64,000 bases of DNA, taken from NCBI RefSeq assembly GCF_013385985.1, contig NZ_JACAOY010000016.1:1-64000 (forward strand). The letters are read 5' to 3'. Positions 796 to 40,873 of this stretch are shown here, one piece after another. Within the stretch, counting starts at the first letter, position 1. Each line of letters begins with the position of its first letter. A program made the position numbers and the translations under genes. This DNA comes from Pseudomonas sp. B6002. Lineage in GTDB: Bacteria > Pseudomonadota > Gammaproteobacteria > Pseudomonadales > Pseudomonadaceae. The notes beneath the pieces were generated by a model, which had not been told where the DNA came from, did no database searches, and worked only from the letters and a program-made list of their open reading frames with translations.

Positions 796-2574
796 TTAGC
801 GATACTCTATAGGATACATTCCATCAAACTGGTGATTAGATTCAAGTATGAAAAGCCTCAGCCTTTCCATCTGCTCTTCTAAGTCCAAGCATTTCAAGTC
901 AGCAACATAATTAGACGTATAGTACTGTGCTACTTTAACCTTGCTCGCCTCTTTTACTTCTCCTCCCTTGGTTTTGTTATATTTTAGAAGATTAGACCAT
1001 CGTCCACGGCTTTCTAGTGATTTCGCTGAAGGATGGACCGCGAGAACAGCTGCCTCTACAAATGTTTCATCTAAGTAGTTCTCAACCTCTCGCCCCTTTG
1101 TAACCCACGCAAATCCGGGGCCAAGGTCGAACTCCTCTTGCAGCCGCTGCTTAGTCAAGGACAACTTGGCGTGAGCGCTAGATTTATCACTATCAAACAT
1201 TATTACGGAATGTCTGTTAAGCTTTCTAATACTTATAAAATCTTCAAGCCGTTCTTGCTCATCGTTATCCAACGCCGTCAAATGACTAAATAGTCGACCG
1301 CCATAAAACATTATTGAATAGTGCACACCTTCCACAAAACTATCGACAAGCGAGGCGATCCAATAATTTAAGTAAATCCTATCGGAAGGTCCTTCAACCC
1401 AAATAACACAGTTAGCCTGCAAAATATCGGATGCCTTATACCCAAGGTTACTGCAAATTTCTGAACGTTGCTTGGTACTGGATATAGCCTCAACTTCAGT
1501 AGCCCCCTCGACTTGCGTGACATGAAAAATTTCTGCCTCTACAGCATCTAATAAATGCGCAGAATGAGTGGTGAAAAAATATTGATTATTAGTTTTATTA
1601 TTTAGGTATGCTACCAACTTCCGCTGAAGCAAGGGATGCAAATGCAGCTCGGGCTCTTCTATACATAATATACTGTCCTCGAGCAGAGTAGCGGCCGCTG
1701 CAAGTATAATAACCTCATGCACACCGGTCCCCAAGGATTCTAGCGGCAACGTTTTACCGTCCATATGAACGAGTATCATATCTCGATCATGAGGTATCTC
1801 TATTGAAGCGCTTAGATTTTCTAGCACATCGGATAAGAAATTATTTATTGCGATAAATTTTAGCTTGTCTTTCTGAAGTTCTAAAGTTGGGTTCTGAATT
1901 TTCGCCAAGCGTTCGATTATCCCTTCTCCGCTGAAATCTGCGGCCTGACTCCCCGACGCTCCAATTTTCCTTATTGCAGGAATCACTTCAATCTTTGGCA
2001 CAGTATCTGGAGAGTAAGCAAGCGCTAACATTGTTTCAGGAAACCAATGAGCTTGTAAGCTCCCGCCACTCTGATTAGTTAAACCCATCCATAAAAACCG
2101 CCATTCATTGGCATTAAGTATCCCCCCAACCTCGTCTCTATCATAAACCAAGGTAAACTTTTTACTTACATCATCATATAGATAAACAAACCACAATCTC
2201 ATCCCATCATTAAACGCTGGACTCATCAGTACTTTTTTCGCTGACTGTAAATTTTGCTGAGAGGCTCCGTAGATAATTTTTTTCCAAATATAATCATCAA
2301 CTTCAGAAAATTGCAAATTAAACGCGACTCTACGACCGACCTTGCCTTCTGAAATATGCTCATCTATCGCAGGTAGTTTAATAGCGTCGCTTATCTTCTC
2401 GCCTTTTACTCCACGCAAAAGAGCAGGATAGTAATGAAAAAGAAAGTTGATAATGTTAGATTTTCCAATATTATTTTGACCTATAATAAAATTTACTTTT
2501 TTTAAGGGCGCCAACTTAATAAGCTTATCCCCAACACTTCGATACCCCGAAAAACCAAATCCCTTTAGCAACAT
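796..2574 (-). CDS. old: OLD-family ATPase/TOPRIM nuclease (P2 old-like exclusion protein)
   Basis: The 592-aa protein has an SMC-like ATPase N-terminus: Walker A GQNNIGKS at residues 32-39, a signature-like LESLGTG near 278-284, Walker B SILCIEEPE at 301-309 and the H-switch FFTTHS at 333-338. A TOPRIM domain follows, with VIWVEGPSD at 390-398 and a later MFDSDK acidic pair. This order defines OLD-family ATP-dependent nucleases. In P2 the founding member excludes lambda and kills recBC hosts. No UvrD-like partner lies next to it, so it looks like a stand-alone class 1 OLD rather than Gabija. It is the outermost gene at attL, with AT-rich codon use unlike the structural genes, as expected of cargo. 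Its activity against other phages is inferred. Confidence 0.85.
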   Translation of the reverse strand: MLLKGFGFSGYRSVGDKLIKLAPLKKVNFIIGQNNIGKSNIINFLFHYYPALLRGVKGEKISDAIKLPAIDEHISEGKVGRRVAFNLQFSEVDDYIWKKIIYGASQQNLQSAKKVLMSPAFNDGMRLWFVYLYDDVSKKFTLVYDRDEVGGILNANEWRFLWMGLTNQSGGSLQAHWFPETMLALAYSPDTVPKIEVIPAIRKIGASGSQAADFSGEGIIERLAKIQNPTLELQKDKLKFIAINNFLSDVLENLSASIEIPHDRDMILVHMDGKTLPLESLGTGVHEVIILAAAATLLEDSILCIEEPELHLHPLLQRKLVAYLNNKTNNQYFFTTHSAHLLDAVEAEIFHVTQVEGATEVEAISSTKQRSEICSNLGYKASDILQANCVIWVEGPSDRIYLNYWIASLVDSFVEGVHYSIMFYGGRLFSHLTALDNDEQERLEDFISIRKLNRHSVIMFDSDKSSAHAKLSLTKQRLQEEFDLGPGFAWVTKGREVENYLDETFVEAAVLAVHPSAKSLESRGRWSNLLKYNKTKGGEVKEASKVKVAQYYTSNYVADLKCLDLEEQMERLRLFILESNHQFDGMYPIEYR

Positions 2575-15195: not shown

Positions 15196-15640
15196 CCTGG
15201 AAGCGCTGGAAACCTGGGCGGCGGTGCTGCTGGATCGGCTGGAGCCAGGTGAGCGCGGCAAATTGGCTCGGAGCATTGGGCAAGAACTGCGGCGCAGTCA
15301 GCAGAAGCGCGTGATGGCTCAGGAGAACCCGGACGGGAGCAAGTTTGCGCCGCGTAAGCAGCGGAACCTTCGCGGAAAGCAGGGCCGGGTTCGTCGGAAG
15401 TTGGCGATGTTCAAGAAGCTGCGGACTGCGTCGTATCTGAAGGCTCGTGGTGATAGCAATAATGTGACGGTAGGGTTCACCGGGCGCATTGCCCGGATCG
15501 CCAGGGTTCACCAATACGGCTTGAAGGATCGTGCGGAGCGTGGTGCTCCAGATGTGAGGTACGAACAGCGTGAAATATTAGGATTCACTGATGCAGACAT
15601 CAACTTAATCAGAGACAAGATACTTTCGCACGTAAACTAA
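15185..15640 (+). CDS. S: tail completion protein, P2 gpS family
   Basis: The 151-aa protein starts MANNLEALETWAAVLL inside the end of R. It contains the family pattern RSIGQELRRSQQKRVMAQENPDG and a C-terminal REILGFTDADINLIRDKIL. It acts with gpR in tail completion. Its stop codon overlaps the stop of the opposite-strand DUF2971 gene (shared bases 15638-15639), showing how tightly that gene was set in. Confidence 0.92.
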   Translation: MANNLEALETWAAVLLDRLEPGERGKLARSIGQELRRSQQKRVMAQENPDGSKFAPRKQRNLRGKQGRVRRKLAMFKKLRTASYLKARGDSNNVTVGFTGRIARIARVHQYGLKDRAERGAPDVRYEQREILGFTDADINLIRDKILSHVN

Positions 15641-16341
15641 AGATCTTCGATACTGAAAACCTCACCATCAACTTCAAAACCCTTAGGTTTCCGATACAAC
15701 ACCGACCTAGATATTCGCCCTACGAACCCCAACTTAAGCTTGAAGTAAAACATAAACGCATTAACTAGTTCATCAGGTGCCCTCGGATCCAGAACAATGC
15801 TTTGGATGAAACGATGAGGGTCAACAGGTATAGTTATACCTTTTTTTCCATCCGCTCTAACTTCTTCCGGGCAAAACAGCGTGGCACGCCATTCGTTTTC
15901 ATGACTGAAGGCCTCTCGCTTCATGTAAAGCATATCAACCGCTTCGCCAATTACAAAAAAATCGTTCAAGCTTTCAGCGACTTTCTCAGCCTTTTCATTA
16001 AGCCTAGTCTGAGAGACATATTCAACTTTGCGAAGTCGGTAATTATAATTTTTATCCTTGATTCCGGATCTTATAACCTGCCTAAACCTTTCCTCAGTAG
16101 TAGATATCCGCACACCCATTCCATCTTTAGAATATATTCGCCACAAGGCATCGGAAGTATGTGTACGACTCCAGCACTGCCCAAAAAGCGCATGATCCTT
16201 AGAATGCCTAATTAGTTGTTCATAGGGATCATCCCAAGTACTGGGATTTGCAAAATAGAGTTCTTGTCTTTCAAAAATCTGGACAACTCGCGAGAAGTCC
16301 ATAATCCGATACAAGCCTGTAGACTCATTTTTGGTTGCCAT
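15637..16341 (-). CDS. DUF2971-family protein inserted within the tail operon
   Basis: The 234-aa protein has the DUF2971 landmarks: N-terminal YFANPSTWDDPYE, central DALWRIYSKDGMGVRIST, and AFSHENEWRATLFCPE, followed by VDPHRFIQSIVLDPRA. The molecular function is unknown; members are scattered in mobile elements and some sit in defence islands. It is antisense to the late operon, AT-richer than its neighbours, and its stop overlaps that of S, so it is a later acquisition (moron). It is likely expressed from its own promoter in the lysogen. A lysogenic conversion or exclusion role is inference. Confidence 0.8.
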   Translation of the reverse strand: MATKNESTGLYRIMDFSRVVQIFERQELYFANPSTWDDPYEQLIRHSKDHALFGQCWSRTHTSDALWRIYSKDGMGVRISTTEERFRQVIRSGIKDKNYNYRLRKVEYVSQTRLNEKAEKVAESLNDFFVIGEAVDMLYMKREAFSHENEWRATLFCPEEVRADGKKGITIPVDPHRFIQSIVLDPRAPDELVNAFMFYFKLKLGFVGRISRSVLYRKPKGFEVDGEVFSIEDL

Positions 16342-26827: not shown

Positions 26828-27268
26828 ATGATGATGGCCCTCGGCATGTTCGTGTTCAGCCTCCACACCGCCGCCTACCAGGAGCTGCAACGCCAAACCG
26901 ATTGGCGCCACGCCAGCAACAACCGCATCGGTGCAGCCCCCGCGCGGCAATTTGTTGGCCGTGGCGAAGACGCCATAACCCTCCCCGGTATCCTCTTCCC
27001 AGAATTGGCCGGCACAGCCCTCAGCCTCGACTCGCTGCGCCTGATGGCAAACACCGGCAAGGCCTGGCCGATGGTCGAGGGCACGGGGCGGATCTACGGA
27101 CTGTGGGTGATCGAAAGCCTCAATGAAACCAGGACCATATTTTTCCCCGACGGTACGGCGCGGCGCATTGATTTCACTCTGAGCCTGAAGCGTACCGACG
27201 ATGACCGTATCGACCTGCTCGGCGCCGGTACCAGCATCGGCGTCAACATCCTGCGGGGCCTGCTGTGA
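26828..27268 (+). CDS. U: tail protein U, P2 gpU family
   Basis: The 146-aa protein (MMMALGMFVFSLHTAAYQEL) has the gpU signature QRQTDWRHASNNRIGAAPARQFVG and WVIESLNETRTIFFPDGTARRIDFTLSLKR. It sits near the tail tube end. Three consecutive ATG codons make the exact start ambiguous by up to two residues. Its TGA overlaps the D start (GTGA). Confidence 0.95.
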   Translation: MMMALGMFVFSLHTAAYQELQRQTDWRHASNNRIGAAPARQFVGRGEDAITLPGILFPELAGTALSLDSLRLMANTGKAWPMVEGTGRIYGLWVIESLNETRTIFFPDGTARRIDFTLSLKRTDDDRIDLLGAGTSIGVNILRGLL

Positions 27269-28536
27269 TCGAGCCCATCATTGCCAAGGTCACCGGTTAC
27301 CTGCGAAACACCGCAGAGCGTTACGTCCGGGACGCAGCCTATCCGGTGCCGGCCTTCCGGCTCGCCGTCGACGGCCTGGACATCGCCCAAATTATCAGCC
27401 CACGATTAATGAGCCTGGAGCTGACCGACAACCGCAGCGTAGAGGCCGACCAACTCAGCATCACCCTCAGCGACCATGACGGCTTACTGACGATTCCGCC
27501 GAAGGGAGCAGTGATCCGGTTGTGGTTGGGCTGGAGCGACACCGGCCTGGTGGACAAAGGCACCTACACCGTCGACGAAACCGAACATAGCGGTGCGCCA
27601 GACGTGCTCAGCATCCGCGCTCGATCGGCAGATCTGCGCAAAGGCCTGAAAACCAAGCGCGAGCGCAGCTGGAGCAACACCACCCTCGGCGACGTCCTGG
27701 GCGATATCGCCATCGGCAACGGACTCACCGCCACTATTTCCGGTGCCCTCGACGGTTTGCCCATCCTGCAGCTCGACCAGGCGAACGAGTCTGACGCCAA
27801 TCTGATCAGCCGTCTGGGCGAAGAATTCGACGCGGTGGCCAGCGTCAAAGCCGGATGCCTGCTGTGCCTGCCGGCGGGTGGCGGCAAGACCGCCAGCGGC
27901 ATGGACCTGCCCCATATCACCCTCACCCGCGCCGATGGCGACCAGCACCGCTACCTGCAAGCCGACCGCGACAGCTACGACGGCGTGCGCGCCTATTACT
28001 ACGACGTGAACAGTGCCAAGAAACAGGAGGCAATCGCAGGCGGCGGCGAAAATCTCAAAGATCTGCGACACACTTACAGCGACCAACAATCCGCACTGCG
28101 CGCCGCCCGGGCGGAGTTCCGGCGACTGCAACGCGGCAGTGCTACGCTCAGCTACACCCTAGCAATGGGCCGGCCGGATCTGATCCCTGAGTTGACGTAC
28201 ACGCTTCAGGGAGTGAAAGCGGAAATCGACGAGATCATCTGGTACGGCGGGAATGTGGCGCACAGCCTGAGTGCGGACGGTGGGTATACCGTCAGCCTGG
28301 AGCTGGAGAGCAAGCTGCCGGATGACAACGTTGAAGACCTGGCAGAAGAGAATCGAGGCGATTACACAGGGATCATTGCCTACTACCGCGATCAGAAGAC
28401 CGGGAAGGAAAAGACGATTACGGCGGGGGATCAGACGAAGCCGAGACGGTTGCGGTGGTTGTATGCCAGTGAGAAGACGGCTAAGCGGGCGGTGGATAGG
28501 GAATGGGGCAAAATGAAGAGTCCTTCTAGCCAATGA
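27265..28536 (+). CDS. D: baseplate hub protein, P2 gpD family (late gene D)
   Basis: The 423-aa protein starts with GTG and contains LMSLELTDNRSVEADQLSITLSDHDG, GVVIRLWLGWSDTGL-like and EYDAVASVKAG-like gpD motifs, and ends with YHIVTLELESKL-like and KRAVDREWGKM elements. It is the T4 gp27-like hub that carries the V spike. It is the last gene of the late block; the next gene is convergent, 8 bp away, with no obvious terminator between. Confidence 0.94.
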   Translation: MIEPIIAKVTGYLRNTAERYVRDAAYPVPAFRLAVDGLDIAQIISPRLMSLELTDNRSVEADQLSITLSDHDGLLTIPPKGAVIRLWLGWSDTGLVDKGTYTVDETEHSGAPDVLSIRARSADLRKGLKTKRERSWSNTTLGDVLGDIAIGNGLTATISGALDGLPILQLDQANESDANLISRLGEEFDAVASVKAGCLLCLPAGGGKTASGMDLPHITLTRADGDQHRYLQADRDSYDGVRAYYYDVNSAKKQEAIAGGGENLKDLRHTYSDQQSALRAARAEFRRLQRGSATLSYTLAMGRPDLIPELTYTLQGVKAEIDEIIWYGGNVAHSLSADGGYTVSLELESKLPDDNVEDLAEENRGDYTGIIAYYRDQKTGKEKTITAGDQTKPRRLRWLYASEKTAKRAVDREWGKMKSPSSQ

Positions 28537-28544
28537 AGACGATT

Positions 28545-29096
28545 TTATTGAATTGTAAGCATCGCATGCATACGCTTTACAATCATAATTATAGTCAGCA
28601 TCAAATTGGCGGTAACAAAGATCACCAGAGGAGTAAGTACATACCGAGCATAATCAATCTTAACAACCCCCCCTGAAAACTCAAAAACAGAAACCACTTT
28701 ATATAAAATAGAATGCACAAAACACAACCCAACCAACAATATAGAGCTAACAATAGAAAAACAAATATTGTAATACAACTGCTTAAGCAAATCCTTCTTC
28801 GCATTATACAAAGGATCAACAGCCTTCAGCCCACTCATATCTTTTAGCTTGCTTTCCTGATCATATACAAGAACCAAAACAGAGAGTAACAAAGCTGTAA
28901 AGATTGCACCAAAGTTGACCAACATGGAGGAAACGTCCTTATTTAAATTGTAGCCAGCATAGCAACCTAGCGCTGCGACAACTCCAGGAAAAGCAAAAAA
29001 TGTCACATAGTCCATAAGAGAACGCTTACCAGCAGGATCAGCCAGAGTAGCTATATGCCCCAGAACAATATCAGTAACATTTATCTTGCTGCTCAT
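28545..29096 (-). CDS. four-TM membrane protein, second gene of the repressor-linked pair (RexB-like position)
   Basis: The 183-aa protein starts MSSKINVTDIVLGHIA; a strong AAAGGTGG lies just upstream and its ATG overlaps the stop of the preceding gene (ATGA). Four hydrophobic segments lie at about residues 29-48, 56-78, 108-131 and 150-172. The loop between TM2 and TM3 is charged (DQESKLKDMSGLK). I do not recognise the family. Gene order repressor - soluble protein - 4-TM protein on one strand mirrors lambda cI-rexA-rexB, where RexB is a 4-TM ion channel that depolarises cells infected by other phages. The link is by architecture only, not by clear sequence likeness. Confidence 0.75.
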   Translation of the reverse strand: MSSKINVTDIVLGHIATLADPAGKRSLMDYVTFFAFPGVVAALGCYAGYNLNKDVSSMLVNFGAIFTALLLSVLVLVYDQESKLKDMSGLKAVDPLYNAKKDLLKQLYYNICFSIVSSILLVGLCFVHSILYKVVSVFEFSGGVVKIDYARYVLTPLVIFVTANLMLTIIMIVKRMHAMLTIQ

Positions 29097-30007
29097 ACCA
29101 CCACCTTTATCCCGGGATACATAAGCTCTATAAATTCGTTTAACAGTGTAGTACACCATTTATGCAAAGACTTCGGCTCCGGATTACCGCCAATCATCTC
29201 AACATCCTCTTCATCCATGATTATTTCACAAATTTGATCCTCAGCCGGCACTCCAACCGTAAACGTACGTTTCTTACCGTCAAGCTCCACGACAGCCTTG
29301 ATCTGACCACAGTGGGGGCGAAGAGATTCAATTACACCATACTCTTCAGTGCCTGGGGTCATAAAGTCGACCAGCGCCCCTAACTTACCTCTAGATGGTG
29401 CTTTAATTACAAGTTGTTGCTCTTTGTGCCCAAGCTTTTTAAGCTGATCCGTTATATCGGCCATAGCTTGAAACTTTGTCAACTTTATTTCCTTGGTCAC
29501 CGCCTTTTCCCACAGCTGAAATGCTTTCTTGTAGGCAAGCGGATTCATATGCAGAGTGCGCTTTGTGGTTTTACTGAAGTCTTCCCTAAGCAAATCATAT
29601 AGAAGAGTTTTAATCCCATTACCTTTATAGCTATGAAGAAGCGCTATCCCCTCATCAAAGCCAGCAGGAATATAAAACCTCACATAATGCCGAATTATCT
29701 CGGCATTTTTTTGTGCTTTCTCAAAATCAACATTACCTGTCTCAATATCGATGATATTGTTTTTTACGCCATATGTACCAGCCTCAAACCACCCAGCCAT
29801 TTGCCTAATTTCTGGATAATACTTCATCCCAAAAAAACGATAAACCTGCTTACTTTCCTCAACAATCTTGAACTTATCCCCTTGTGCAGTAATGAAATCC
29901 CGAAAAAGATCATACGCGTCGTACTGCCCTATCTTATCCAACACTGAATAACGCTCATCACTGTACGGATTGAAGCACCGGATGGAATAGGGGGATATTG
30001 AATGCAT
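29093..30007 (-). CDS. unknown soluble protein, first gene of the repressor-linked pair (RexA-like position)
   Basis: The 304-aa protein starts MHSISPYSIRCFNPYSDERY and has no TM segment or signal peptide. Notable blocks are VYRFFGMKYYPEIRQMAGWFEAGTYG, an IRHYVRFYIPAGFDEGIALLH / GNGIKTLLYDLL segment near residues 105-140, and an acidic C-terminal stretch (EIIMDEEDVEMIGG). The segment order (IPxG..GIxLLxxxGxxGIKT) recalls unknown proteins I associate with phage-exclusion genes, but I cannot name the family. AT-rich; coupled by ATGA to the 4-TM gene. It lies 254 bp beyond the repressor stop on the same strand, so it may be read in the lysogen from the repressor promoter or its own. Confidence 0.75.
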   Translation of the reverse strand: MHSISPYSIRCFNPYSDERYSVLDKIGQYDAYDLFRDFITAQGDKFKIVEESKQVYRFFGMKYYPEIRQMAGWFEAGTYGVKNNIIDIETGNVDFEKAQKNAEIIRHYVRFYIPAGFDEGIALLHSYKGNGIKTLLYDLLREDFSKTTKRTLHMNPLAYKKAFQLWEKAVTKEIKLTKFQAMADITDQLKKLGHKEQQLVIKAPSRGKLGALVDFMTPGTEEYGVIESLRPHCGQIKAVVELDGKKRTFTVGVPAEDQICEIIMDEEDVEMIGGNPEPKSLHKWCTTLLNEFIELMYPGIKVVV

Positions 30008-30261
30008 GAGACCACACCACTACAAGTTATCAATCATTAATTTACGACACACAAACCGGCTTCAATACTTAATGCGACAACAAGTCACAAAAATTAACTC
30101 AAGACGACTTAAGTAACGCAGAAATTTATTTGGGGTGAGTATTTTCATAGATCACATCCATTGTGATAATTCTTATATGGCCGTTTTTCAGTTCATCGAC
30201 CATTTCTAAAGGCACCCAACAAATCATCCGTGATGGGAAATCCGTTCTTAATGGGTACAGA

Positions 30262-30669
30262 CTATGCTGGCCGTTTGGTATCGGCAAGTGCTTCAGTCAA
30301 ATCCTTGAGGCGCTGCTCGACATCCATTAAGCGTTTCTTTTCTTCAGCAGCGCTCTGTATCTCCCGCTTACCGGCCTCTCCAAGCGAACGGAACAGCTCA
30401 AGAATGGCCTCCTCCTGCAGATTCTTTGTTTGTGCTTCCGACGAGGCCGCCGAAACACCCAGACACATAGACCCCTCACCCGTCAGCAGCCAATCCAGGC
30501 TTATACCCAAATGAGTGCGAATGGCTGCCATGGCCTTCGCATTGGGCTCACGCTCGCCCAGAAGGTAGTTCTGAAGCGTCCTGTAAGGGATCCCCACTAC
30601 TTCTGAGGCCTCCTTTATAGACATACCTCTGTCGTCGATTACGCTGCGCAGGCGAGCGGCTATACTCAT
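30262..30669 (-). CDS. C: C-type phage repressor, XRE-family HTH
   Basis: The 135-aa protein starting MSIAARLRSVIDDRGM has an XRE helix-turn-helix at about residues 15-37 (SIKEASEVVGIPYRTLQNYLLGEREPNAKAM). The C-terminal half is a charged coiled-coil-like helix (EAGKREIQSAAEEKKRLMDVEQRLKDL). It lacks an S24 peptidase domain, so SOS cleavage is not expected, as for P2 C. An in-frame ATG at 30699 lies inside the operator dyad and is less likely as the start. It diverges from the cox-like gene across a 90-bp switch region. Confidence 0.85.
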   Translation of the reverse strand: MSIAARLRSVIDDRGMSIKEASEVVGIPYRTLQNYLLGEREPNAKAMAAIRTHLGISLDWLLTGEGSMCLGVSAASSEAQTKNLQEEAILELFRSLGEAGKREIQSAAEEKKRLMDVEQRLKDLTEALADTKRPA

Positions 30670-30758: not shown

Positions 30759-31019
30759 ATGAGCCAAGCCATGGAAAAGCGCCAGATCCAAGCACGGCTG
30801 ATCGAGCGCGGCAGCAACTTCCGTCAGTTCGCCCTCAGCCACGGCTATGAAGTGCGCACAGTGACGCAAGTGGTTCAGCGTTGGGCCGGGCACAAAAAAC
30901 TGCCTCGTGGCCGGTTGACGTTCCAAATCCTGCGAGACCTATCGCGGGTAATCGGTGAGGAAGTGCTGCCGGGAATTCTTGCGGAGAACACCGAGCAAAT
31001 TTCAGCACCGGCTGTATGA
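30759..31019 (+). CDS. Cox/Apl-like early regulator (HTH)
   Basis: The 86-aa protein (MSQAMEKRQIQARLIERGSNF) carries a helix-turn-helix (NFRQFALSHGYEVRTVTQVVQRW) followed by a basic stretch and an RDLSRVIGEEVLPGIL tail. It is the first gene read from the early promoter and faces the repressor, the position of cox in P2 and apl in 186. Such proteins repress the lysogenic promoter and act as excisionase. An ATG at 30771 is an alternative start. Confidence 0.7.
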   Translation: MSQAMEKRQIQARLIERGSNFRQFALSHGYEVRTVTQVVQRWAGHKKLPRGRLTFQILRDLSRVIGEEVLPGILAENTEQISAPAV

Positions 31020-38582: not shown

Positions 38583-38792
38583 ATGAACAACGGAAAATCC
38601 TTCCCCTGGAACCTGGACCTAACCGGCATATGCGACCAGTGCAACAGATCCCGTGCCCACGGCAACCACCAGAAGTGCAGCAAAGCGCGTCAGGCGCTCA
38701 ACGCCAAGCGTCGGGCCGAGGAAGCCCAAGCCGGTACCACACCAGCACCTAGAAAAAGTGCCGGCCTGTTCTGGTTACTTCGCCAGCAGTGA
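38583..38792 (+). CDS. small Cys/His protein, possible zinc finger
   Basis: The 69-aa protein (MNNGKSFPWNLDLTGICDQCN) has CDQC followed by HGNHQKC, a likely zinc site, then a basic helix (KARQALNAKRRAEEA). GGGGGA precedes the ATG. It ends 26 bp before a terminator and closes the early operon. The function is unknown. Confidence 0.6.
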   Translation: MNNGKSFPWNLDLTGICDQCNRSRAHGNHQKCSKARQALNAKRRAEEAQAGTTPAPRKSAGLFWLLRQQ

Positions 38793-38817
38793 TCGGCAAT
38801 ACTTCAGCGCAATACAC

Positions 38818-38842
38818 AAAGGCCCGGAGACGGGCCTTTTTT
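38818..38842 (+). terminator. rho-independent terminator at the end of the early operon
   Basis: Stem AAAGGCCCG / CGGGCCTTT (38818-38826 and 38831-38839, loop GAGA) followed by TTTTTT. It separates the early operon from the integrase gene, which must have its own promoter or read-through. Confidence 0.85.
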
Positions 38843-38886
38843 CTTTCACCTGGAAGAATCTTTCAATACATCGCGTGGGGACGCAT

Positions 38887-40053
38887 ATGGCAGATGGTGT
38901 AGAGGCCCGTGGCAATTCGGTACGGGTCTATTTTCGTTTTAATGGAGAGCTGTGCCGGGAGCTGGTGCCCGGAGGCAACACACCGGCCAACCGCGAGCAT
39001 GCAAAGCGCCTGGTCACAGTCATCGAATACGAGATACAGGCCGGCACCTTCGATTACCGCCGGCACTTTCCCGAGTCGACCAAATTGGCCGAGAACAGCT
39101 TCGGGCACTACCTGGACCTATGGTTGACCATCAAGAGCAACAGCGTGGCCGCGACCTCTTTCCGGGGGTACAAGAATAAGGCTGAGGTCCATGTGCGGCC
39201 GCGCTGGGGGGACGTTCAGATCGATCAGATTGACCACTTGGACCTGCAGGAGTGGATTCAGGGGCCGCTGTCGAAGCGGCTGAAGAACAAAACCATCCGC
39301 GACATCATCAGCAATGTGCGCCAGGTGTTCCGGCTGTACCGCACCCGGAAGAAGGTCGCGCACGACCCAACTGAAGGGTTATTCGTGCGTCTGCCCGATC
39401 CGGAGGCGCCGGATCCGTTCAACAGGGCCGAAATCAAGCAGATCCTCGAAACACCGACCAATCGTACTCAGGAGCTGCTGATGGTGCAGTTCATGATTTG
39501 GGCAGGGCCGCGGGTGTCGGAGACTATTGCCCTGGCATGGGAGGATGTCGATCTGAAACAGGGGACAGTGACTTTCCGCCGATCCAAGGTGCGGGGAGCC
39601 TATCGCGTGACGAAAACCCGGCGCTCTACTCGCAAGGTGCGTCTGCTGGAGCCTGCATGGGATGCCCTACGCAAGTTGGACACGATCAACCAGCTCAAGA
39701 CCGTGGACACGGTCGACGTCGTCGAGCGGGACAACAAGACCATCCGCAAGCACAAGCTGCACTTTGTATTTCTGAACACAAAGAGCGGCGTGCCGCACGT
39801 CAGCGACTTTGTCGTGAGGGACAGGTTCTTCAAAGCACACTTGAAAGCGGCCGGCGTTCGCTATCGCGGGCCAGGTCAGTGTCGGCATACCTACGCCAGT
39901 CAGTTGCTCACCACTGGTGTGGCTTCGGTTGACTGGATCGCGGAGCAGATGGGGCATACCAGTGCGAATATGATCCGGCAGCACTATGGGACGTGGATCA
40001 ATGAAGATGGACCAGACGTTATTGCAATACTAGAGCAAGCGCTACGTCTGTAG
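38887..40053 (+). CDS. int: tyrosine site-specific integrase
   Basis: The 388-aa protein has an N-terminal arm-binding domain, a SAM-like core-binding domain (NSFGHYLDLWLTIK, about residues 65-160), and a catalytic domain with Arg in WAGPRVSETIALAW, the RHTYAS box (GQCRHTYASQLLTTG; the first His of the usual HxxR is Gly), the second His in QMGHTSANMI, and nucleophile Tyr in RQHYGTW. It inserts the phage at tRNA-Ser, 730 bp away. The start MADGVEARGNSVRVYFRF follows the terminator directly; a longer frame upstream overlaps the zinc-finger gene and is not used. Confidence 0.93.
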   Translation: MADGVEARGNSVRVYFRFNGELCRELVPGGNTPANREHAKRLVTVIEYEIQAGTFDYRRHFPESTKLAENSFGHYLDLWLTIKSNSVAATSFRGYKNKAEVHVRPRWGDVQIDQIDHLDLQEWIQGPLSKRLKNKTIRDIISNVRQVFRLYRTRKKVAHDPTEGLFVRLPDPEAPDPFNRAEIKQILETPTNRTQELLMVQFMIWAGPRVSETIALAWEDVDLKQGTVTFRRSKVRGAYRVTKTRRSTRKVRLLEPAWDALRKLDTINQLKTVDTVDVVERDNKTIRKHKLHFVFLNTKSGVPHVSDFVVRDRFFKAHLKAAGVRYRGPGQCRHTYASQLLTTGVASVDWIAEQMGHTSANMIRQHYGTWINEDGPDVIAILEQALRL

Positions 40054-40783: not shown

Positions 40784-40806
40784 TGGCGGTGAAGGAGAGA
40801 TTCGAA
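40784..40806. repeat. attR: right copy of the attachment core (3' end of tRNA-Ser)
   Basis: Identical to positions 1-23. It consists of the encoded CCA, discriminator G, acceptor stem and the T-arm side of the tRNA-Ser gene. The tRNA remains intact on this side, and the integrase gene is the nearest large gene. Confidence 0.9.
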
Positions 40807-40873
40807 CTCTCGATACAATTTCTTGTATACACACTTTCCAGGCGTGCTCCTTAAGCCACTCGGACACTTCACC
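40784..40873 (-). tRNA. serX: tRNA-Ser (anticodon GGA)
   Basis: Ninety nucleotides. Acceptor stem GGTGAAG pairs with CTTCACC, discriminator G, CCA encoded. The anticodon arm CACGC-CTGGAAA-GTGTG gives anticodon GGA (reads UCC/UCU). A long variable arm (ATACAAGAAATTGTAT, self-complementary) and the T-arm GAGAGTTCGAATCTCTC mark a class II serine tRNA. It is the integration target of the prophage. The symbol is a generic choice. Confidence 0.95.

Follow-up and report, generated by a model that had tools for sequence, protein, structure and literature searches.

In phage lambda, the repressor gene cI is followed by rexA and rexB, which encode a soluble protein of 279 amino acids (aa) and a membrane protein of 144 aa. 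Five RexAB-like systems in all have been described according to a 2026 study on Pseudomonas putida (PMC12894663), in which the triggering of Rex is still described as unknown. The study reports that RexABpp (PP_5643/PP_5644) is required for defence and that overexpression of RexA sets off RexBpp, an effector that suppresses growth and damages the membrane, with no depolarisation seen; suppressors of RexABpp toxicity fall in rexB. In actinophages, prophage defence has been attributed to genes 43 and 44 of CarolAnn, both of which are required (PMC6426606), and to genes 30 and 31 of Sbash, where mutations in gp31 abolish defence (PMC6426596), and a RexB-like channel has been proposed for each. 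The RexA-like proteins of Sbash, CarolAnn and Toast are reported to be dimers with non-specific DNA binding, and the Gordonia phage DumpsterDude is named among Rex homologues (PMC11077077). The subject here is a pair of coupled genes behind the repressor of a prophage in Pseudomonas sp. B6002, located in a stretch of 64,000 nucleotides (the window, meaning this whole stretch) that forms the start of contig NZ_JACAOY010000016.1 within a 6.68-Mb Pseudomonas genome.

On the minus strand of the window, a C repressor (30262–30669) is followed by a gene for a RexA-like soluble protein of 304 aa (29093–30007), the proposed DNA-binding sensor or activator, and then by an ATGA-coupled gene for a RexB-like protein of 183 aa with four transmembrane (TM) segments (28545–29096), the proposed membrane effector; this is the RexAB-type order. 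We consider it probable that the two genes form an abortive-infection (exclusion) system of RexAB type, which a P2-type Pseudomonas prophage carries as cargo and which belongs to a branch distinct from that of lambda. What supports this reading directly is the gene order, the coupling, the co-conservation of the two genes, purifying selection, homology to actinophage Rex-like proteins and a cargo slot whose contents can be swapped. A sequence-only reading of the window had already pointed to these open reading frames (ORFs) in this order, to their AT-rich composition and to a P2-type phage, and had proposed an undescribed analogue of RexAB made of two proteins of no recognised family. The first three points hold as given, and neither protein falls in a Pfam, NCBIfam or PADLOC family.

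The gene pair and its actinophage relatives

The ATG of the membrane ORF overlaps the TGA of the soluble ORF upstream. A mechanical ORF caller begins the membrane ORF at an upstream in-frame ATG, giving 204 aa; the inner ATG was preferred because the conserved family start MSxKI begins there. A Kyte-Doolittle scan of the membrane protein found four hydrophobic stretches, the first of them marginal (one scanning window, 1.61, at residue 27). The guanine-plus-cytosine (GC) fraction is 0.42 in the soluble gene and 0.38 in the membrane gene, against 0.61 in gene D and 0.58 in the replication gene. Across four relatives compared, the proportion of nonsynonymous differences in the pair (pN 0.15–0.26) lies well below that of synonymous differences (pS 0.71–0.91, near saturation), and both genes look functional and under purifying selection.

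The pair was scanned against Pfam, NCBIfam, PADLOC and PHROGs, and against PDB by sequence. Neither protein matched near the cut-offs of the first three libraries, where the sole weak matches of the membrane protein were DUF805 (E value (E) 1.1) and MAG2810 (E 0.06), and the PDB search at E up to 10 returned zero matches. In PHROGs the soluble and membrane proteins matched phrog_15676 (E 8e-16) and phrog_15250 (E 7e-15), both families of unknown function. When 64 RexA-like members were run against Pfam, only scattered weak matches appeared, each in at most four members (best E 0.007). The pair matched no virion, replication or metabolic family, an identity that the earlier proposal had kept in view and that is rejected here. 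None of the libraries searched gives this sequence branch a name; a literature search, which reached some papers in part, found none naming the gene pair, and a P. syringae prophage survey (PMC13182921) contains no word beginning with "Rex".

Kinship was found at the level of profiles, built from 64 RexA-like proteins with no actinophage row (A5) and from 64 RexB-like proteins (A6). In hhalign, A5 matched DumpsterDude gp44 (probability (Prob) 96, E 1.5e-9), CarolAnn gp44 alone (Prob 81, E 1.2e-5) and a three-row profile of CarolAnn gp44, Sbash gp30 and Sejanus gp46 (Prob 96, E 3.6e-9, 260 columns), against a best of Prob 1.6 among 121 unrelated six-frame ORFs, taken singly and in many cases not genes. 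A6 matched DumpsterDude gp43 at Prob 98.9 (E 1.4e-17), against 2.6 for the best of 250 unrelated ORFs of the same kind. The family member in prophage G098 also matches the PHROG of CarolAnn gp44 (HMMER E 3.6e-5). By these profile comparisons, the soluble protein is homologous to the RexA-like proteins of DumpsterDude, CarolAnn and Sbash, and the membrane protein to the RexB-like protein of DumpsterDude.

DumpsterDude gp45-44-43 repeats the order repressor, RexA, RexB; its proteins are nevertheless distant from those of the window, with 15% (soluble) and 24% (membrane) identity in alignments A3 and A4, and belong to a phage of an actinobacterial host. CarolAnn gp44/gp43 and Sbash gp30/gp31 are likewise overlapping pairs of a soluble and a four-TM gene; their soluble proteins are about 66 aa longer than that of the window, and their membrane proteins are not detectably similar by profile. 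The CarolAnn pair follows its repressor, as in the window, and the Sbash pair does not adjoin its own.

These relatives also bear on the division of labour. Mycobacteriophage Butters gp30/gp31 is, in the discussion of PMC12894663, a Rex-like pair that works with reversed roles; on that model the soluble protein of the window would be the antiphage effector, bound and restrained at the membrane by the four-TM protein. Co-occurrence and translational coupling fit a restrained partner as well as they fit a sensor and its effector. We nevertheless regard the reversal as unlikely: toxicity suppressors strike rexB in RexABpp, the Pseudomonas case, and the reported need for both CarolAnn genes and for an intact Sbash gp31 argues in the same direction.

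Co-occurrence, mobility and exchange of the pair

A tblastn search with the soluble protein found two phage records, both P. aeruginosa Pf elements with 60% identity (58% for the partner), and four records of Acinetobacter plasmids, in one of which the soluble gene is shortened. The membrane protein added DumpsterDude and three small enterobacterial plasmids: that of Serratia holds the whole pair, the record of that of Kluyvera opens with the 3' part of the soluble gene, and that of Klebsiella has a fragment of the membrane protein. A family scan with a 12-row membrane-protein alignment gave 68 loci in IMG/VR and 25 in GTDB genomes, some elements being common to both collections. Of these 93 loci, which were all reached through the membrane protein, 92 have a RexA-like ORF immediately upstream in the same orientation; at the exception, L061, no upstream RexA-like ORF reaches 100 aa. 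By match coordinates the genes overlap in 69 of the 92 paired loci and are at most 20 bases apart in 90. Two of the 92 soluble ORFs measure no more than 200 and 215 aa, and no open membrane ORF was found at L048 or L103; 88 loci hold both ORFs with a soluble ORF of at least 250 aa, and 63 were left after removal of near-duplicates. Scans with the soluble protein alone had no match among viral contigs; among genome contigs they marked 32 stretches, which were not confirmed. In the search from the membrane protein, the separation of the two genes that the earlier proposal had allowed for was not the rule, and the pair recurs as a unit in phages, including filamentous Pf phages, and in some plasmids.

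Two coupled genes carried by phages and small plasmids might suggest a toxin–antitoxin (TA) or addiction module that stabilises prophages and plasmids. We give this little credence, since annotated TA pairs already reside on the same element in several carriers and the homology points to Rex-like defence proteins. Two kinds of mobile element show the RexAB-type pair in exchange with other genes. In Col(Ye4449) plasmids, the place beside mobC is taken by this pair (L012, L011) or, in L171 of Yersinia ruckeri, by a rexAB pair of lambda type. The leading accessory slot of Pf phages, ahead of the repressor and excisionase, holds this pair in PfAC16 and Kiwa plus ShosTA in PfAC02a. On plasmids and in Pf phages the pair would probably use its own promoter.

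In P2-type prophages the corresponding slot is bounded by C and gene D. When 399 genomes of the genus were searched with the repressor, 12 related prophages were found at E up to 1e-25, the source included. The cox-like gene flanks C in all 11 others and gene D lies on the far side in nine; the contig of G661 ends first, and the G158 piece shows no gene D. In the window, the left border of the slot is gene D, which encodes the baseplate hub (27265–28536, plus strand; Phage_GPD E 1.7e-9). On the other side stand C, a Cro/CI-type helix-turn-helix (HTH) protein of 135 aa (HTH_3 E 1.4e-9; PHROG repressor families 3037 and 8, E 2.4e-14), and, divergent from it, the cox-like early gene (30759–31019, plus strand), which is assigned by position only and has no Pfam match.

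Divergent alleles of the pair, with 26–28% identity in the soluble protein, are present in two of the 11 prophages, G661 and G098, the C repressor of G098 being 79% identical; the other nine lack the pair. Eight further D-bounded slots measure 1.7–3.3 kb with a GC fraction of 0.40–0.45, their contents being read by eye from ORFs. A three-gene set occupies the slot in G136, G524 and G646, with a divergent version in G674. In G645 (L157 2936–4593), behind a 96%-identical C repressor, there is a pair of a 371-aa soluble and a 181-aa hydrophobic protein with ATGA overlap, which was rejected as a relative of the window pair despite its like architecture (Prob under 1). In G175 (L162 2655–4923) the gene of an NA37 nucleoid-associated protein (PF04245, 2.1e-54) overlaps that of a 426-aa partner with hydrophobic stretches seen by eye; this is possibly another cargo of DNA binder and membrane protein, and it too was rejected as a RexAB-family relative (Prob under 1). 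G026 holds a protein matching the candidate PDC-M38A (1.1e-20) and, in its N-terminal part, PD-Lambda-5_A (2.8e-19), with a DruM-like methyltransferase on the other strand, and G523 holds other ORFs. The C-to-D slot is certainly a variable cargo slot.

The exchange can be placed more closely. Among 15 upstream pieces compared, the window, L021 and G098 share about 21 base pairs (bp) after C and nothing more of the gap, which therefore puts the swap point at the end of C. In Vibrionaceae, a P2-related defence hotspot has already been described next to the repressor (PMC9122126).

As to the three-gene set (L156 2593–4711, L158 5347–7447, L163 2356–4456, L160 2529–4687), it encodes proteins of about 350–365, 132–147 and 209–231 aa, the third nuclease-like by eye; the L156 proteins have no Pfam or PADLOC match, and the first L160 protein has no PADLOC match. 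In G098 a 268-aa protein (L146 15670–16476, minus strand) without a PADLOC match follows the divergent RexAB pair.

The position behind C raises the question of a role in lysogeny rather than defence, with the RexA-like protein binding operator DNA to tune the C/cox switch. Lambda RexA is reported to bias the CI-Cro switch independently of RexB (PMC11077077), and the pair follows a repressor both in the window and in DumpsterDude. A switch modulator is nonetheless very improbable: the pair also occurs on plasmids with no annotated phage switch adjoining, in PfAC16 it is convergent with the repressor and lies outside its transcript, and the slots of the sister prophages mostly hold unrelated cargo.

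Weighing a RexAB-type function

Several results weigh against assigning the pair to a RexAB-type exclusion system. The similarity to lambda RexA stays sub-threshold, with Prob 0.7 for the single sequence, 2.3 for three rows and 13 for eight diverse rows, and lambda RexB has no detectable profile homology (Prob 0.1 and 0.5). The PADLOC RexA and RexB models do not match the pair at E up to 10, and A6 detects neither CarolAnn gp43 (Prob 0.4) nor the profile of CarolAnn gp43, Sbash gp31 and Sejanus gp45 (Prob 2.0). When eligible loci were screened with a profile that is crude and insensitive, a same-strand repressor-like HTH ORF within 2 kb upstream turned up in only 10 of 56 (downstream, 1 of 59); the family as a whole therefore does not share co-expression with a repressor. 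In the gap that separates C from the soluble gene, a scan with the E. coli consensus detected no sigma70-like promoter on the minus strand (2 promoter sites versus 5.0 in shuffles). Lastly, 11 of 13 slot proteins scanned from neighbouring prophages had no PADLOC match at E 1e-3, the two that matched both being in G026; for this reason the slot is called a defence slot only by inference.

For the lambda RexA profile, column permutations served as the control: the eight-row alignment, which is collinear around an IKPxR stretch, scores 30.9, whereas the highest of 100 permutations reaches 27.9; it is still below accepted thresholds. CarolAnn-type RexA likewise does not reach lambda RexA by profile, and because it fails by the same method, the failure of the window protein is non-discriminating. 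The PADLOC models, which recover lambda at 9e-110 and 8.6e-61, also miss the CarolAnn and DumpsterDude proteins scanned. The gap (30008–30261, 254 bp, GC 0.37) contains neither an intrinsic terminator nor a sigma70-like site on the minus strand, so that transcription of the pair by read-through from C would be allowed. Repressor linkage recurs, as in L017, where a CI-type repressor seen by eye lies 30 bp upstream of the pair, but it is no family rule; the sequence-only description of the pair as repressor-linked stands for the window and for these recurrences and does not extend to the family.

Since no Rex model of the libraries matched (the lambda Rex PHROGs 12654 and 14878 included) and RexB similarity is absent, the pair is kept out of the lambda RexAB sequence families and is filed, by its profile matches, with DumpsterDude and, through the soluble protein, with CarolAnn and Sbash. 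The proposed RexAB analogy is partly supported, and beyond what layout alone could offer, by the kinship to Rex-like proteins of actinophages; a recognisable tie to lambda RexB is absent. Of the proposed novelty, the branch is unnamed, but its kind is known from lambda, CarolAnn, Sbash, Butters and P. putida RexABpp. Relatives of lambda RexA itself (L169, L170, L171 and others) were seen on ColE-type plasmids of 3–5 kb from E. coli and Yersinia ruckeri and on plasmids of Acinetobacter, where they are annotated as hypothetical.

RexABpp, likened here by its published description, is again a soluble and four-TM pair of a Pseudomonas prophage downstream of a CI-like repressor; unlike in the window, two genes stand between the pair and the repressor. 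Of seven RexBpp residues named in that paper, at most three match in any of 76 alignment rows with offsets allowed, an uninformative check. Kiwa is of the same architecture class, a small membrane protein with a soluble protein of about 300 aa, and fills the matching accessory slot of PfAC02a; KwaA is described as the detector and KwaB as the effector (PMC11878078), so that in a Kiwa-like system the membrane protein of the window would sense infection and the soluble protein would act. The reversed order, with kwaA first, the lack of profile similarity to the one KwaA/KwaB pair compared (Prob 0.1 and 0.6) and the absence of a PADLOC match speak against this; Kiwa identity was rejected, and a Kiwa-like mode of action is scarcely credible.

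These comparisons have led us to propose a model for the RexAB-type system whereby the lysogen expresses the pair, probably through read-through of the C transcript or from its own promoter. By analogy with its relatives, the RexA-like protein would be a non-specific DNA-binding dimer. Infection by another phage, through a phage protein or through DNA–protein complexes of replication, would act on this dimer, which would then switch the four-TM RexB-like protein to a state that breaches the inner membrane, and growth and the incoming infection would stop.

The 63 non-redundant loci suggest that RexAB-like pairs are far more numerous than the described systems, though the soluble gene occurs in nine of 399 genomes of the genus, the source included. 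The surprise lies in the number and mobility of the members. Models based on lambda miss such pairs; the available part of the PfAC16 paper (PMC11878078), for instance, lists TA and PfsE only for that phage and not the pair. Natural variants are many, and two of them (window and G098) occupy the same slot behind related repressors; they offer a series for mapping triggers and RexA–RexB specificity. More tentatively, and as a proposal we hold to be doubtful, the pair could represent a branch of Rex-type immunity that is large, unnamed and found mainly in Proteobacteria, and that serves as an interchangeable cassette of tailed prophages, filamentous phages and mini-plasmids; its RexA would sense not one phage protein but a general feature of invading DNA, such as complexes of replication or recombination, and unrelated resident elements could thus all use it against any newcomer.

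The carrier prophage

Positions from about 1 to 40806 of the window are an apparently complete P2-type prophage, identified by GpU (E 3.6e-45), GPD (E 1.7e-9) and terminase. It is flanked by a 23-bp direct repeat at 1–23 and 40784–40806. The left attachment repeat may extend further because the contig, like the window, begins at base 1; the right one is the 3' end of a tRNA-Ser gene (40784–40873, minus strand). A tyrosine integrase is encoded in the same prophage (38653–40053, plus strand; Phage_integrase E 1.8e-15). A second AT-rich cargo gene (15637–16341, minus strand; GC 0.42) encodes a 234-aa DUF2971 protein that matches the PADLOC candidate for phage defence PDC-S31 (E 4e-60). Near the left attachment repeat, a gene at 796–2574 (minus strand; GC 0.41) encodes a 592-aa OLD/GajA-like AAA ATPase (AAA_15 E 2.4e-20, GajA E 1.4e-23) and is possibly a third cargo gene of the prophage.

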